Source of the DNA: a virus
Direction: 5' to 3' (one strand)
Length of the DNA stretch: 29,684 nucleotides
IMG/VR virus record: IMGVR_UViG_3300047557_000495
Span: 1-29,684 of that record
Of this stretch, positions 3,637 to 16,053 are shown piece after piece. The translations under genes and the position numbers were made by a program. The notes below the pieces were generated by a model. It did no database searches. It saw only the letters and a program-made list of their open reading frames with translations, and had not been told where the DNA came from. How positions within the stretch are numbered: the stretch's first letter is position 1; each line of letters begins with the position of its first letter.

Positions 3637-5217
3637 ATGGGAATCCTAGCCACCATCCGAGAGAAGCTCTTTGCTGCTCCTGCTAACAAGTACGAAGGGG
3701 CAAGCCAGTCTTTGCGCCGTTCGTATCTGGATACGTCTTACACGTCTGCTCGTTTCGACGTTACCAGTTCGACCCGACAAGCCATTGTCCGTAAATCGCG
3801 TTTCTTTGAACAGAATAACGCGATAATGAACAGGTTGGGAGATCTGTTTGAGTCTTACACAGTTGGCTCTTCGTTCTCTGTTCAACCTGCTTCTAGCGAT
3901 CCCGCTTGGAATCTTAAGGCTAAGAAGTGGTTTGATATTTGGAGCCGATATCCCGACATCGGCTCCCGTCAGTCGTTCTCGACGCTCATGGGCCAAGCTG
4001 CCCGTGGGTGGTTCTATGACGGTGAGTCTTTCATTCTGCTTACCCGTGGAGAAAGCGGAAAACCGCGACTCCAGTTGATTGAGGCTCAATCCATCGCAAC
4101 TCCGGTGGGTATGGAGTCTGACCTGACCGTGTTTGACGGTATCCGGTTTGACCCGAAGACGGGACGTGCTGTTTCCTACTTCATTGGTTCCGAGAAAACG
4201 CAGGGAAATCTAGTCGATGTTCGCTCCATTCCTGCGGATTCGGTCGTTCACATTTACGAGCCAAATCGTCCCGGTCAACTCCGAGGTCTACCGTTCGTCA
4301 GTGCGGTTATCAATGATCTCCACGATCTCGACGACCTCCAGAAGCTGGAGATGGAAGCTTGCAAACTCGGAGCCTCAGTCGCTCAGATCGTCAAGACCGT
4401 AAGCGGTGAGATCCAAGCCTCTAGTCTCCGCGCTGGCATTGGAGCCAATGTTACGCCTAACACTGCCGAGACGTATTACGAGCAGGTTTTCGGTTCTTCA
4501 GTTAAAGTTCTTAAGAACGGAGACACTTTCGAGCAGTTCGCCACCGAGCGTCCCGGTGTCAATATGCGCGAGTATTGGCGGCAATTGACCGAGAAGGTCT
4601 GTGCTGGTGTTGGTATTCCTTACGTTTTGGTCTATCCCGAATCCATGCAGGGAACTGTCTATCGCGGAGCGTTAGACATGTCCGCTGTTTGGTTCCGCTC
4701 GCGCCATCAAGTGATGGCTTCTGCTGCTCGTCGTATTTACGAGTACGTCATGGAGTATGCGATCAAGAGCGATCCGACTCTGAATGACGCTCCGTCTGAC
4801 TGGTACGAAGTCTCCATCACTGCTCCGCGCTCGCCCAATGTTGACGTTGGACGTAACTCGGCGGCTCAACTTGCAGAACTTGAGGCCGGTGTTGTGACTT
4901 ACGATGAAGTCTACGGTGCGCGTGGACTTGATTGGCGTTCTGCTCTTGAGGCTAAGGCTCAACAAGCTTTATATATTAGAGAGCTTGCAAGCAAATACGG
5001 ACTCCGAGTGTCGGAAGTTTCTACTATACAAGAGGATCGGCCAGAGCGTATTAAGACCGAGCCGACAATTCCGCAGCCTCCAGAGCCAGATCCTAGCAAC
5101 AGCCCGAGTCCTGTTGCGGCACCTGATAGCGGTTCTGATTCTGAGGTTGTCGATGAAACGGTTGTGACCGCTTCAGTCAAAAAGCAACGTAAGCCGAGAG
5201 CCAAGAAAACCGAATGA
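3637..5217 (+). CDS. Portal protein, lambda gpB type
   Basis: The 526-residue protein should form the dodecameric ring at the capsid vertex through which DNA enters and leaves. The N-terminal half follows the lambda portal pattern: SLRRSYLDTSYTSARFDVTS, then an RKSRFFEQNNAIMNRLGDLF stretch and a YDGESFILL strand. The central part has the stem and clip-like segment, with NDLHDLDDLQKLEMEACKLG. The last 60 residues, after about residue 465, are rich in Pro, Ser and Glu and end in a basic KKQRKPRAKK tail, so they are probably disordered. The length matches lambda gpB (533 residues). It starts directly after the previous stop and overlaps the protease gene by four bases. Confidence 0.93.
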   Translation: MGILATIREKLFAAPANKYEGASQSLRRSYLDTSYTSARFDVTSSTRQAIVRKSRFFEQNNAIMNRLGDLFESYTVGSSFSVQPASSDPAWNLKAKKWFDIWSRYPDIGSRQSFSTLMGQAARGWFYDGESFILLTRGESGKPRLQLIEAQSIATPVGMESDLTVFDGIRFDPKTGRAVSYFIGSEKTQGNLVDVRSIPADSVVHIYEPNRPGQLRGLPFVSAVINDLHDLDDLQKLEMEACKLGASVAQIVKTVSGEIQASSLRAGIGANVTPNTAETYYEQVFGSSVKVLKNGDTFEQFATERPGVNMREYWRQLTEKVCAGVGIPYVLVYPESMQGTVYRGALDMSAVWFRSRHQVMASAARRIYEYVMEYAIKSDPTLNDAPSDWYEVSITAPRSPNVDVGRNSAAQLAELEAGVVTYDEVYGARGLDWRSALEAKAQQALYIRELASKYGLRVSEVSTIQEDRPERIKTEPTIPQPPEPDPSNSPSPVAAPDSGSDSEVVDETVVTASVKKQRKPRAKKTE

Positions 5218-7349
5218 GCTTCACCAAGAAATCAGATTGGCTCTATTACTCACCGGCAAATTCTGCTGGTGAGACTTCGACCATCCAGATCTTCGATCAG
5301 ATCGGTGAGGACTGGTTTGGTGGTGCTGGACTGTCTGCAAAGCAATTCTCTGACGTTCTTGCTGAAGTTGGAAATGGGCCGCTCTTGGTGGAGATCAACT
5401 CTCCCGGTGGCAACGTTTGGGACGGTCTCAGCATCTATAACCAGCTTCGCGGTCGCAAAGCTCCGGTGACGACCCGAGTGGTTGGCATCGCTGCTTCGAT
5501 TGCTTCCATCATTGCGCTTGCCGGTGATCGCGTTGAGATGGCCGATGCCGCTCTGATGATGATTCACGATCCGTCTGGAATGGCCGCTGGCACTTCCGAG
5601 GATATGCGGAAGATGGCTGATGCTCTTGATCAACACGCTGAAGTGCTGGTTGGAGTGTATGCCAAGAAGACCGGCAAGTCTCCTGAGTCTATCCGCGCTG
5701 CGATGAAGGCTGAGACTTGGTTCACCACCGCCGAAGCTTTGGCTTTCGGTCTGGTGGACAAGCCGATCAAACAGCTTGCGATGGCTGCGAAGTGGCATCC
5801 TCGCGCTGTTACTAAGACCGCTCCCGAGACGGTCAAAAACAATCTCCGCCGAGGTCTTGAGCAGTACGCTGAAGGTTTGGCTGGTGAAGGTCTGGAAAAG
5901 CAGACCGTTCTTGAGGCTGAGTCTCTGGTCGCTGGAGAGCAGCCAACCGAAGATAAAGTCGAGAAGGCTAATGCTTGGTGGGGTCGCAACGAGCGATTCT
6001 TGGCAGCAGAGCCTAACACTCCTGCCGATGTCGCTGCCAACCTTTGGGGTGGTGCGGCTGGACGCGACTGGTTCCGCGCTCTTTACGCTCAGTTGGAGCG
6101 TGAAGAACTGGAGGAAGATGATTCCCCAGATGATAAGATTTCGACCAACAGCACCAACGCTGAAGGCGAGGCTGGCGTGACCAACACGCCGCAACCAACA
6201 CACAACAACACCGACACAACCATGTCTGACACTACTACTGTGGCGGCTGCGGCTCCTGCTGCTTCCGTCGATCTTGCTTCCATTATGGCCAAGCTCTCCG
6301 CTCTGGAAGCTTCGTTGAAGTCTCCCGCCGCTGCTCCCGCTCCCGAGCCGGTGCGTCCTGTGATTGAGAACCTCGGCAACCCGCTGCTGGAGAAGCATCG
6401 CGGTCTCCGCGCTGGTGCCGAGCGTCGCAAGTTCCTTGTGGAGAACCACAGCGAGCTTCTGCGTCAGTCGCAGATTCACGCCCCGCAGAACGCTAACACG
6501 TTCACCTCGACGCTGGTTGTGGATTACCTCGCTGATGCTATCATCACCGTTGCTGCTACCAAGCTGGCGATGGTTGACGCTTTCAGCCGCAACGTGGGTC
6601 TCGACAACCTCCGCCCGAAGGCCACCGTTCGCGTCAAGAAGTTCACGACTGGCACCGCCGCTCAGGTCAATCCCACCAACTGGGAGACCAACAACGATTC
6701 GACGCTTGCCGCTACCTCGGTGACCGTTGACCAGATCAGCAAGAACTTCACGGTCACGCAGGAGGAACTGAATCAGGGCTTCGCTCTGGCTGACCTCGCT
6801 GCCGGTTCTGCTGACCTGTTTGCCTACGGCATCAGCGACAAGATCACTGCCGTGATGACCGCTGCCAACTACGGCACCGCGATCACGATCGGCACCGCTG
6901 CCAACTTCGACACCAGCGACCTCCCCGCGATTCTGGCTGCTGCCAAGAACTACCGCAGCAAGAACCTCGTTCTGGACGGTGGACACATTGCTCGTCTGTT
7001 GTTCTCGTCCGCCGCTAACACCTTCCCCGATGGCCGTCTGGCCGCGCTGGCGAACGGTCGTTTCGGCTTCGATGTCATCGCTGAGAACAACCGCTGGACT
7101 GGTGCTGAGACCAACACCGCTGGCTTCGTCTGCGGTCCCGACGCGATCGCCATTGCTGCCGGTCTGCCGGTTGGAATGGTTGCCGGTGAGTTCATTGAGC
7201 AGCGCACGGTCACGACCAACAACGGTCTGTCCTGCTTGCTCTCGGTCTGGTACTCCCGCGCTACCCGCTCGCACATGGCGTCTTACGACATCATGTTCGG
7301 TGCCGCTGCTGCGGACACCACTCAAGCCGAGGTTCTGATCACCGCTTAA
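5214..7349 (+). CDS. ClpP-like prohead protease fused to major capsid protein
   Basis: One uninterrupted 711-residue frame encodes two virion functions. Residues 1 to about 190 are an S14/ClpP-like maturation protease: NSPGG at 62-66, the nucleophile Ser95 in GIAASIAS, and His118 in MMIHDP. Residues 190-335 form a charged, probably helical scaffold-like linker that ends in a low-complexity Thr/Asn/Pro stretch. From Met337 the sequence is a HK97-fold-type capsid protein of about 375 residues, starting with an Ala-rich coiled delta-like segment. Codons from this point shift strongly towards C-ending forms, as expected for the most highly expressed virion protein. Lambda also couples protease and scaffold (gpC with nested Nu3), but its capsid gene E is separate. 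Proteolytic separation or internal initiation is needed to make free capsid protein. Confidence 0.9.
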   Translation: MSFTKKSDWLYYSPANSAGETSTIQIFDQIGEDWFGGAGLSAKQFSDVLAEVGNGPLLVEINSPGGNVWDGLSIYNQLRGRKAPVTTRVVGIAASIASIIALAGDRVEMADAALMMIHDPSGMAAGTSEDMRKMADALDQHAEVLVGVYAKKTGKSPESIRAAMKAETWFTTAEALAFGLVDKPIKQLAMAAKWHPRAVTKTAPETVKNNLRRGLEQYAEGLAGEGLEKQTVLEAESLVAGEQPTEDKVEKANAWWGRNERFLAAEPNTPADVAANLWGGAAGRDWFRALYAQLEREELEEDDSPDDKISTNSTNAEGEAGVTNTPQPTHNNTDTTMSDTTTVAAAAPAASVDLASIMAKLSALEASLKSPAAAPAPEPVRPVIENLGNPLLEKHRGLRAGAERRKFLVENHSELLRQSQIHAPQNANTFTSTLVVDYLADAIITVAATKLAMVDAFSRNVGLDNLRPKATVRVKKFTTGTAAQVNPTNWETNNDSTLAATSVTVDQISKNFTVTQEELNQGFALADLAAGSADLFAYGISDKITAVMTAANYGTAITIGTAANFDTSDLPAILAAAKNYRSKNLVLDGGHIARLLFSSAANTFPDGRLAALANGRFGFDVIAENNRWTGAETNTAGFVCGPDAIAIAAGLPVGMVAGEFIEQRTVTTNNGLSCLLSVWYSRATRSHMASYDIMFGAAAADTTQAEVLITA
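6193..6224 (+). promoter_or_regulatory. Candidate internal translation start for the capsid protein
   Basis: An in-frame ATG at 6222 is preceded by a C- and A-rich, almost G-free stretch (CAACAACACCGACACAACC just before it). This matches the leaders of several independent genes here, such as the CTAACACAAC before 13022. Read as protein, it gives the odd low-complexity run TNTPQPTHNNTDTT, which looks more like a translated leader than a folded linker. Initiation here would yield a 375-residue capsid protein beginning MSDTTTVAAAAP. No Shine-Dalgarno sequence is present, and direct proof is lacking. Confidence 0.5.
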
Positions 7350-7360
7350 TCCTAAAGGAT

Positions 7361-7537
7361 ATGCGTATTGCAACCACCATTGCAGTGGACAAGAACGGCA
7401 AGAGCAAAATCGTTTCTGGTCCCGATGTTGACGCGACTCTCCAGCGCGACAACTTCAACACTGCGAACGTCCCAGAAGGAGGCAAGCTTATCCTGTGGAT
7501 ACAGGGAGCCTTAGCACCGAAAGTCCGAAAAGGTTAA
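7361..7537 (+). CDS. Small unknown protein after the capsid gene
   Basis: This 58-residue frame starts MRIATTIAVDKNGKSKIV and ends with basic residues (KVRKG). An AAAGGA stretch lies just before the ATG, closer than usual but the only Shine-Dalgarno-like signal nearby. It begins 11 bases after the capsid stop and ends just before a strong hairpin, so it is probably co-transcribed with the capsid gene. Its codons resemble those of its neighbours. I do not recognise a family; a minor head protein is possible from position alone. Confidence 0.55.
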   Translation: MRIATTIAVDKNGKSKIVSGPDVDATLQRDNFNTANVPEGGKLILWIQGALAPKVRKG

Positions 7538-7545
7538 CCTAAAAT

Positions 7546-7582
7546 GAGGGGGGGCTGCTGGAAAGTTCCAGTGGTCCCCCTC
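7546..7582 (+). terminator. Long GC-rich hairpin downstream of the capsid block
   Basis: The arms CTGGAA (7558-7563) and TTCCAG (7566-7571) pair perfectly. The stem extends outwards through G-U pairs into a run of Gs opposite TCCCCC, giving about 15 continuous pairs with a tiny loop. No T-run follows, so it is not a classical factor-independent terminator. It sits 15 bases before the next start codon. Partial termination, an RNA processing site or a stabiliser of the abundant capsid transcript all fit. Confidence 0.5.
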
Positions 7583-7597
7583 TAACCAGATTTCAAA

Positions 7598-7867
7598 ATG
7601 TCCGCATACCAGACCGATGTAGCAACGCAGGATTCGATGGGTCATCAGGGTTTCACTCTGGTTACCGGAACGTCCGCTCAGACGAGCGGTTACATCGCAA
7701 TTCAGACCATCACCGCGACCGTGATTTCGTCCATTGCTGGCACTGGTATCACCGGAACGTGGAGTGGCACCACCATTCCCGCTGGCATCACCATCGTGGG
7801 TAAGATCAGCAGCTTTACGCTGACCTCTGGTGCGGTCATCGCTTACTTCGCTCGCGCCACCACCTGA
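7598..7867 (+). CDS. Small probable virion (decoration-type) protein
   Basis: The 89-residue protein is rich in Thr, Ser, Ile and Gly and has a beta-strand pattern throughout (GYIAIQTITATVISS, ITIVGKISSFTLTSGAVIAYFA). Short all-beta proteins ending in a pattern like SFTLTSGAVIAY commonly lie next to capsid genes in metagenomic phages and are thought to be virion surface or decoration proteins. That is from general memory of such loci, not a proven match. It has no Shine-Dalgarno site; an A-rich TTTCAAA precedes the ATG. The stop overlaps the next start (TGATG). Confidence 0.7.
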   Translation: MSAYQTDVATQDSMGHQGFTLVTGTSAQTSGYIAIQTITATVISSIAGTGITGTWSGTTIPAGITIVGKISSFTLTSGAVIAYFARATT

Positions 7868-12523: not shown

Positions 12524-13008
12524 ATGGCGTCGCAATGCGTACCGAGCGAGCGTTGGCCGATTGGCTGGCTGCTCAAGACTGGTCAGCGTCTCCGCTTGGG
12601 ACTCCCGCTTGTCTGACTAGCTACGGAAACGGCGCGTTCAATGATCCTGACTTGGAGGATCGGATGCCAGACTTCCCGCGCATCGTGATCCGTTCTTCAA
12701 CTGCCGTTCCGGTCCATCCGATTGATCGGACTTGTGAGCTTGATGTCACCGCGACGCTTCAGTTATCCGCTGACGACACCTCGGAATCTGACGCTCTTCT
12801 GACCGTTGCAGCGTTTGAGAACATTCTTCAACCGCTGTTCGTCGATGACAACATCTCGGATCTGAACACCGGAGATGATGATCCCTCCGGTGGGTTCACT
12901 GCGTTCTTTGCAACTCCGACTGATTTCGGAGTGAACGACACCAGTGAAAGGGCTAGAACTTTCTCGCGGTCGATGACAATCTTTGCAGCAGCAAACGCAA
13001 ACACTTAA
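12520..13008 (+). CDS. Putative tail terminator protein
   Basis: The 162-residue protein begins with a helix typical of terminators (MRTERALADWLAAQDW) and then strands containing DFPRIVIRSSTAVPVHP, CELDVTATLQLSADD and a TFSRSMTIFAA end. This helix-then-sheet plan, with a small ligand-like charged loop, matches the lambda gpU class of tail terminators. It sits right before the major tail protein, the conserved terminator position. It overlaps the preceding gene by ATGA. No residue pattern is unique enough to settle it. Confidence 0.65.
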   Translation: MNGVAMRTERALADWLAAQDWSASPLGTPACLTSYGNGAFNDPDLEDRMPDFPRIVIRSSTAVPVHPIDRTCELDVTATLQLSADDTSESDALLTVAAFENILQPLFVDDNISDLNTGDDDPSGGFTAFFATPTDFGVNDTSERARTFSRSMTIFAAANANT

Positions 13009-13021
13009 CACCTAACACAAC

Positions 13022-13477
13022 ATGGCAGTTTCAAAAGGACTCGCGCTAGTCTATGGCGCAAAGGGAACCATAACGCTTTACACTCCTGCCGGCGTCGCTC
13101 TGACGACTGGAGCGATTAGCACCATTGAGAGCTACGACGCGACCCATGAGGCCGACGTTGAGCAGATCAAAAACTCTGCCGGTGAGGTTGTGGCTCAGGT
13201 GTCCGCCAATGAGCGCATTTCGCTCAACGTGACGTTTATTCCGTCCGCTTCGAGCTTTGCTCAAGCCAAGCTTGCCGCCGGTCTTCCTGCGGTGAATGGT
13301 TACGCTACTATCGCTGCGAGCGATGGCGTGACCGTGGGCGGTGTTTCCATTGATGGGGATTACGTCTATTCTGGCGGTGGAAGCGTCAAGTTCACCAGCA
13401 GCGGTAAGGCTATGGTCACTGTGACCGTGACCAAGTACCCGTCGCTGGCTGGTAACGCTTCGACGTTCACGCTGTAA
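13022..13477 (+). CDS. Major tail protein
   Basis: The 151-residue protein should form the tail tube. It is almost entirely beta structure with a helix after the middle (SSFAQAKLAAGLPAVNG). Its opening KGLALVYGAKGTITLYTP and the HEADVEQIKNSAGEVVAQV segment resemble small tail-tube proteins. It is preceded by a G-free leader CCTAACACAAC rather than a Shine-Dalgarno site, the kind of leader seen at other independently translated genes here. Length and location between terminator and tape measure fit. High expression is suggested by its frequent C-ending codons. Confidence 0.75.
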   Translation: MAVSKGLALVYGAKGTITLYTPAGVALTTGAISTIESYDATHEADVEQIKNSAGEVVAQVSANERISLNVTFIPSASSFAQAKLAAGLPAVNGYATIAASDGVTVGGVSIDGDYVYSGGGSVKFTSSGKAMVTVTVTKYPSLAGNASTFTL

Positions 13478-15111: not shown

Positions 15112-16044
15112 ATGGCAACGATCAAAACAACGACTCTTACACCGGTTCGCATTGGTGCTCCAGCAGCAGAGCCGGTTTTCTATAGTTCGCTTGGTGGTCT
15201 TGCTTACATTGAGGTCTCTCGTCAATACAACAATGGCGACGGGACTGGTCGCTATATCACTTACAAGTATCGCGGAAGCAAAGATGCTCTCCGTGCTGCT
15301 TCTGCTGATTGGGTCGCTGCTGGTGGCAAATATCAGATTAACGAAGACGGACCGTACTCGGAAGCAACTGTCACGTTTGCTGGAAGCCAGATTGACCCAA
15401 ACGCTCCGCTTTCTCCGGTTGATCCGTTTCAAGAAGAGCCTACGACTCGGTTTGAGTTTCGAACCGAGTACATTGATGCATCGCTCTTTGCGCTTCCTTA
15501 TGTCAGGGCTGAAGCCAAGCGATGGGTTCAAACATACGCTTCAGTCAACATCACTGAGGCTGATTACTATGCAGCAATTAAGCTTGCAGGTGAAGATCCG
15601 AAGAACAACAAGCTTAACTCTGTAACGCTTAATGATATTACAACACCGGCAGAAATCTTTCCGGTGTCACAATTCCCGCTCGCCCATCAATTGGTTTTGA
15701 GGTTTTCGAGGGGTCAAGACAGCTTTCAAACGAGCCGAGTGTCTCTGACTCGCGTGTCGTCGTTCTCCGCTCGTAATGGGCTTCCTGCGACTCCGCCAAT
15801 CATCTCTTCAATCTACTCTGGAGAAGTGCTTGCGGCTCGTAATGGATTCCCTGATTCGGTGAAGACCATGATGCCGAAGCCGCCAGCGGACCCGAATCTA
15901 ACTCCAGATGGAACCGCTTGGTCTTGGTTGAAGACAAACGACTCAACTTCACTTATCATCAAGACCAACCAAGTTGAAAGGAACGAGACTTGGACCTTTG
16001 CCGCTTGGGATCTTTTCGCTTATCCTTACAACCCACCAACCTGA
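15112..16044 (+). CDS. Unknown tail protein
   Basis: The 310-residue product follows the tape measure stop by one base. It has mixed beta and loop content, aromatic-rich strands (VSRQYNNGDGTGRYITYKYRG, FRTEYIDASLFALPYVRAEAK) and a C-terminus rich in Pro and Trp. This is the slot of distal-tail or tail-tip proteins in siphoviruses, but I see none of the familiar lambda M, L or J patterns. I annotate it as a tail-tip candidate of unknown family. Confidence 0.7.
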   Translation: MATIKTTTLTPVRIGAPAAEPVFYSSLGGLAYIEVSRQYNNGDGTGRYITYKYRGSKDALRAASADWVAAGGKYQINEDGPYSEATVTFAGSQIDPNAPLSPVDPFQEEPTTRFEFRTEYIDASLFALPYVRAEAKRWVQTYASVNITEADYYAAIKLAGEDPKNNKLNSVTLNDITTPAEIFPVSQFPLAHQLVLRFSRGQDSFQTSRVSLTRVSSFSARNGLPATPPIISSIYSGEVLAARNGFPDSVKTMMPKPPADPNLTPDGTAWSWLKTNDSTSLIIKTNQVERNETWTFAAWDLFAYPYNPPT

Positions 16045-16053
16045 TAACATAAC

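Follow-up and report, generated by a model that had tools for sequence, protein, structure and literature searches.

A conserved internal start between the protease and capsid parts of a fused phage gene suggests a dual-start organization

How does a tailed phage obtain its capsid protein from a gene in which the head protease and the capsid protein share one reading frame? Equimolar amounts of protease and capsid protein are unusual in phages, which counts against a polyprotein as the only product of such a gene. The question is raised by an open reading frame (ORF) in a 29,684-base virus contig (the whole stretch of DNA that was analyzed, hereafter the window) from a freshwater phage of an abundant lineage, where the fused ORF follows terminase, a small gene and portal in a siphovirus-like head gene order. 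Judged from its sequence and that of its relatives, the ORF is very probably a dual-start gene that yields a fusion protein from position 5214 and a capsid protein from position 6222. The features of the locus are the following:

5214–7349, plus strand: fused protease-capsid ORF, 711 aa/codons in a single open frame that stays open in all near relatives
5373–5765, plus strand: ClpP-type serine protease domain, residues 54–184, with S95, H118, and D182 invariant
5766–6083, plus strand: WW-containing conserved region, approximately residues 185–290, lying after the ClpP domain and before the linker; present in the recombinant L271 as well
6084–6221, plus strand: variable linker, residues 291–336, with the lowest conservation within the protein
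6173–6191, plus strand: covarying RNA stem-loop UGGCGUG-ACCAA-CACGCCG, ending 30 nt upstream of the internal ATG
6192–6221, plus strand: C/A leader, nearly G-free and T-free, with the top synonymous conservation in the ORF
6222–6224, plus strand: putative internal start ATG (Met337), invariant in 124 out of 124 unique relatives
6222–6464, plus strand: predicted delta-like N-terminal region of the capsid product, Ala/Pro-rich and helical, with an approximate boundary
6465–7346, plus strand: HK97-fold major capsid protein, based on a weak PHROG match and structure-model matches

The ATG of the fused ORF overlaps the stop codon of the portal gene (ATGA, 5214–5217); this overlap is kept partly because the second codon begins with A, and no conserved coupling of the 5214 start to the portal gene is claimed. 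On the minus strand, a 707-codon open frame (5250–7373) lies antisense to the whole fusion gene and is likely a by-product of codon bias, not a gene. Downstream of the ORF, the window contains a strong intergenic stem at 7545–7582 (GGGGCTGCTGGA / TCCAGTGGTCCC), 19 nt upstream of a small gene at 7598.

The initial annotation described a single frame that joins a ClpP-like protease to the capsid protein, and matches on both sides of the junction bear this out. The Pfam family PF00574 (ClpP) matches residues 54–184 (E = 1e-32) and the catalytic triad S95/H118/D182 is intact in 124 out of 124 sequences. The capsid part gave only weak sequence matches, to the PHROG "major head protein" family phrog_283, and no match to annotated phages or to PDB sequences. 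Foldseek matches of a first AlphaFold model (pLDDT 52.6) were HK97-fold capsid proteins, and a model of residues 413–711 (pLDDT 55.0) aligned with the P22 procapsid (VIA-align Z = 14.9 over 253 residues) ahead of encapsulins and other phage capsids; both models are of low confidence and were used for the fold class only. On these models, the C-terminal part is an HK97-fold capsid protein, and with the N-terminal triad intact and the capsid domain in the same unbroken frame the gene is a ClpP protease-HK97 capsid fusion. It falls outside the phrog_133/Phage_capsid_4 (MD8-type) fusion family: a phrog_133 match is confined to residues 11–215, Phage_capsid_4 does not match the fused protein, and the C-terminal capsid part matches neither. 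A product started at Met337 would comprise 375 aa and run through the HK97-fold domain to 7349, with a helix at 18–33 and helices at 54–86 predicted with low confidence by AlphaFold.

The fusion gene matches over 500 stretches in IMG/VR. The fused frame is stop-free in 123 unique full-length relatives, which are mostly >75% identical so that counts among them are of non-independent events, and indels within the linker preserve the frame. The unbroken frame together with the invariant catalytic triad makes the long form look functional, and the fused product appears to be kept by selection as well. ATG337 is retained in all 124 unique full-length relatives although the surrounding segment is where the protein varies most (mean majority frequency 0.69 for linker residues 291–336 vs. 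0.93 and 0.87).

The 30 nt upstream of this ATG contain one G, 15 A, 14 C, and no T. The initial annotation had likened this leader to those of independent genes, and the comparison holds within the window: of the 131 other in-frame ATGs inside the window genes (mean 8.3 G), not one has two or fewer G in the upstream 30 nt, as opposed to 5 out of 33 presumed gene starts, including those at 13022 and 16054. Within the window, a 30-mer with at most one G and no T occurs at 6192–6193 only. The leaders of genes 13022 and 16054 (12992–13021 and 16024–16053) are C/A-rich with one G per 30 nt and resemble the internal capsid leader. Gene 13022 has no family match and possibly encodes the major tail protein, based on gene order; C/A-rich, G-poor leaders may mark the genes of abundant virion proteins. 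Shine–Dalgarno (SD) sequences are sparse in this phage (5 out of 33 starts), and the phage's own gene starts suggest non-SD initiation in the host. As to the host itself, a scan of bacterial genomes with the capsid alignment found no prophage relatives, and the protease alignment retrieved distant ClpP genes only, which are usable in the SD test described below and name no host.

Synonymous sites within the leader are frozen to a degree seen nowhere else in the ORF. Codon identity given the same amino acid is 0.96 in the ten scorable columns upstream of ATG337 and 0.67 in amino-acid-matched columns elsewhere, a level that none of 20,000 amino-acid-matched draws reached, and when all 13-column windows of the alignment are ranked, the top twelve begin at residues 315–326. 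The leader prefers codons that are otherwise rare in the gene, the G-free CAA and ACA among them: glutamine is encoded by CAA in 155 out of 155 cases (35% of Gln codons across the whole ORF), ACA accounts for 62% (7% in the whole ORF) and GAC for 66 out of 68 (42% in the whole ORF). This freezing looks like a constraint on the mRNA rather than on the protein.

Codon usage also switches at the junction. The more C-ending codons that the initial annotation had reported downstream are confirmed, with C/(C+T) at third positions increasing from 0.43 in the protease part to 0.63 in the capsid part (p = 5e-5). Sharper than this rise is the drop in A-ending codons, from approximately 15% to 3% across the junction; by block, the 124 relatives have 7–22% in the protease part and 2–5% in the capsid part. 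The best single change point for A-ending codons is at residue 316/338, in a fit that left out residues 318–336. Such a switch is expected where a far more highly translated product begins.

RNA folding revealed a feature that was absent from the initial annotation, a stem-loop at 6173–6191 that ends where the nearly G-free leader starts. A stem of 5–8 bp forms in all 35 distinct versions of this stretch, with three main stem types (GGCGTG/CACGCC, GGCAAA/TTTGCC, and GGCATG/CATGCC). Among 12 distinct versions, 97.9% of cells are paired (83.8% in shuffles) and 17 are doubly changed (7.4 in shuffles, reached in 0 out of 500), a covariation that depends on the three main stem types; pairing falls to 35–56% when the partner is shifted by 1–3 columns. 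A scan of all short-loop stems of at least 5 bp in the 2,133-nt ORF identified four conserved stems, two of which are overlapping versions of 6173–6191, the sole conserved stem that covaries (99.6% of cells paired, three doubly changed pairs). The compensatory changes alter amino acids (Val..Thr, Lys..Leu, Met..Met), indicating that the protein follows the RNA. Rfam contains no significant family at the hairpin. The hairpin was not found upstream of other starts in the window; a role as a general start signal of the phage was dropped for this reason, and the same absence assigns the hairpin to the internal start at 6222. Our preferred guess is that the hairpin keeps the leader free and gives ribosomes a landing site.

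The main alternative for the hairpin is mRNA processing. More broadly, the junction might carry a transcript feature (an RNA processing site, a 5′ stabilizer or an internal promoter) that produces a capsid mRNA from approximately 6190, on which 6222 is a normal start. The order of the two elements, stem-loop first and C/A leader next, could indeed mark a processed or protected 5′ end. A scan of 5900–7620, which covered sigma-70-type promoters, found neither such a promoter nor an intrinsic terminator; the covariation of the stem would fit processing too, which makes this explanation a variant of the same two-product outcome and not its opposite. We regard it as unlikely, yet as the strongest of the alternatives. 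It is a good deal more doubtful that the hairpin, strongly conserved and placed at a domain junction, mainly stalls or drops off ribosomes arriving from the protease part and so limits the fused product, as ribosomes usually open a 7-bp stem and stalling leaves both the conserved G-poor leader and the ATG unexplained.

Relatives with separate genes offer a comparison that the initial annotation had proposed, and a natural recombinant (L271) provides it. Its protease region is near-identical to that of the window and the WW region is kept, with a switch at approximately residue 300, after which the fused part is replaced by a different scaffold-like tail that ends in TAA; the capsid gene is separate. 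This gene, which has a weak capsid-profile match, starts 12 bases past the stop (TAA-CAACACACACAA-ATG) and its leader reads AACAACACACACAA-ATG. A genuine separate start in this lineage is thus preceded by the type of leader that precedes the internal ATG of the window. Within the recombinant locus (L271:786–3074), the scaffold part likewise opens with an ATG in frame (gagaacaaaATGGAAAAC), which may be an internal start like that of C/Nu3. The Akkermansia phage Moulinsart, whose terminase is related and whose ClpP and probable capsid proteins are encoded separately, was considered and set aside, as its candidate capsid has no family match and homology is unsupported.

Diverged fusions were taken from IMG/VR, bacterial genomes and phages, giving 36 dereplicated proteobacterial ORFs, of which half carry ClpP and the other half a different N-terminal part. 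ATGs preceded by an SD sequence are strongly enriched at the junction (35 out of 134 vs. 6 out of 558 elsewhere, p = 3e-21; 36 ORFs), and non-Met junction codons are preceded by an SD in 175 out of 4366 cases. A junction ATG with an SD is present in 30 out of 36 ORFs; the junction window was set by the analyst and individual ORFs vary, so that the claim is one of collective enrichment and not of each case. A second scorer found a junction ATG with an SD of at least 5 nt in 29 out of 36 ORFs, where 200 synonymous shuffles gave a mean of 11.5 and a maximum of 16 ORFs; a strong junction SD is missing in 6–7 of the 36. The junctions read AAAGGAGcctcac-ATG in L149, AAAGGAGGaacgacc-ATG in L153, AAGGAGGcaacc-ATG in L272, and AGGAGttcgcccac-ATG in JBD68 (L359), a Pseudomonas phage whose fusion has AGGAG upstream of a junction ATG.

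Among non-SD relatives, the junction leaders of L229 and L267 contain one and zero G per 30 nt, each the lowest among all in-frame ATGs of its ORF; the junction ATGs of L211 and L257 have no strong leader (5–6 G). A clear hairpin was not found in these four distant fusions, and L234 has a 5–6 bp version of it. Overall, the ATG between protease and capsid in diverged fusions appears to bear the initiation signal expected of the host. Half of the phrog_133-type capsid ORFs, a subset within L310–L355, have an N-terminal part that the profile does not recognize as ClpP, yet their junctions show the SD-ATG pattern too. Capsid fragments of phrog_133 that occur unfused in genomes (L320, L326, and L356) were uninformative.

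That a 711-aa polyprotein is the only product, from which the protease cuts itself off co- or post-translationally, the linker being an ordinary low-complexity spacer, would agree with the frame being unbroken in all near relatives and with the description of MD8 gp5 as one gene in a section of PMC8508860 that leaves a second start unmentioned, but is very improbable because a spacer requires no invariant Met, frozen synonymous sites, compensating stem or codon switch and because SD sequences occur at the same junction in diverged fusions.

The internal start proposed in the initial annotation is therefore largely supported, by the invariant ATG, the frozen leader, the codon switch, the hairpin, L271, and the junction SDs. 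In the proposed dual-start gene, initiation at ATG 5214 would give a ClpP protease-linker-delta-capsid fusion and initiation at ATG 6222 a 375-aa delta-capsid protein, helped by the stem-loop at 6173–6191 and the unstructured, nearly G-free leader at 6192–6221. The internally started form would be the bulk capsid protein. The fused form, present in smaller numbers, would co-assemble by way of its capsid part and bring the protease into the prohead in cis, and the protease would then remove linker and delta. What the sequences themselves show is an unbroken fused frame with a conserved internal start, constraint at the RNA level, a hairpin, and a change in codon usage; initiation at 6222, a majority of internally started product, and protease delivery by the fused form are what these features suggest. 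The Thr/Asn/Pro run encoded by the leader may be a former intergenic leader, as the initial annotation supposed. The N-terminal delta region of HK97-type capsid proteins is usually removed, which makes internal initiation compatible with a mature N-terminus downstream of Met337.

If this reading is true, a fused gene can still yield hundreds of capsid subunits with few proteases, and the genes for protease, scaffold, and capsid could become joined or separated with their stoichiometry intact. The locus would also be a natural, strongly conserved case of SD-free bacterial initiation with a directly testable RNA element. In many phage genomes a single "head maturation protease" or "major capsid and protease fusion" is annotated and a separate capsid gene is lacking; such annotations probably hide the real capsid start.

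Nested starts are known in protease-scaffold genes, in lambda C/Nu3 (cited in PMC8508860) and in Mu and the Mu-like phage PaMx73 (PMC4378225). In lambda C/Nu3 and Mu I/Z, as proposed here, a start lying in frame within the head protease gene gives a second protein of head assembly in larger amounts, and the long form bears both domains. The locus has the sequence signature of such a nested in-frame gene, a conserved internal start with an initiation signal at the domain junction, and the parallel to C/Nu3 drawn in the initial annotation stands as a mechanism. It does not extend to the product: in lambda and Mu this is a scaffold, with a separate capsid gene, whereas here it is the delta region plus capsid and not a scaffold devoid of a capsid domain. 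The lambda and Mu starts also use an SD sequence, in place of which a hairpin and a nearly G-free leader are found here.

Fused genes are known as well. In Pseudomonas phage MD8, protease, scaffold, and capsid have been attributed to the single gene gp5, in a gene section of PMC8508860 that mentions no internal start. MD8 gp5 and other phrog_133/phrog_4523 ClpP-Phage_capsid_4 fusions share with the present gene a protease, a scaffold-like part, and an HK97-fold capsid in approximately 700 aa, but their capsid part is of another family and their host uses Shine–Dalgarno sequences. For the Arthrobacter phage fusions Circum 12 and Maggie 7, likened here by description, protease and capsid functions are likewise reported to share one gene, and the passages of PMC5513430 that describe them discuss no internal start. 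HK97 gp5 has a helical N-terminal region before the shell domain, as is predicted for the present product, and here too no separate scaffold gene was seen; the HK97 protease is encoded by a separate gene, whereas here it is fused and the delta-like region may be cleaved off. In the open-access literature searched, no paper was found that states an internal capsid start within a fusion gene, which subscription literature could hold, or that describes the conserved internal start with its hairpin. It is somewhat more likely than not that in tailed phages a protease-capsid fusion gene is generally dual-start, with a previously undescribed SD-free combination of stem-loop, nearly G-free C/A leader, and AUG inside coding sequence in this lineage. 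Fused genes and nested protease-scaffold starts were thus already known; new here are a nested product that would be the capsid protein itself and a start marked by a hairpin and a nearly G-free leader.
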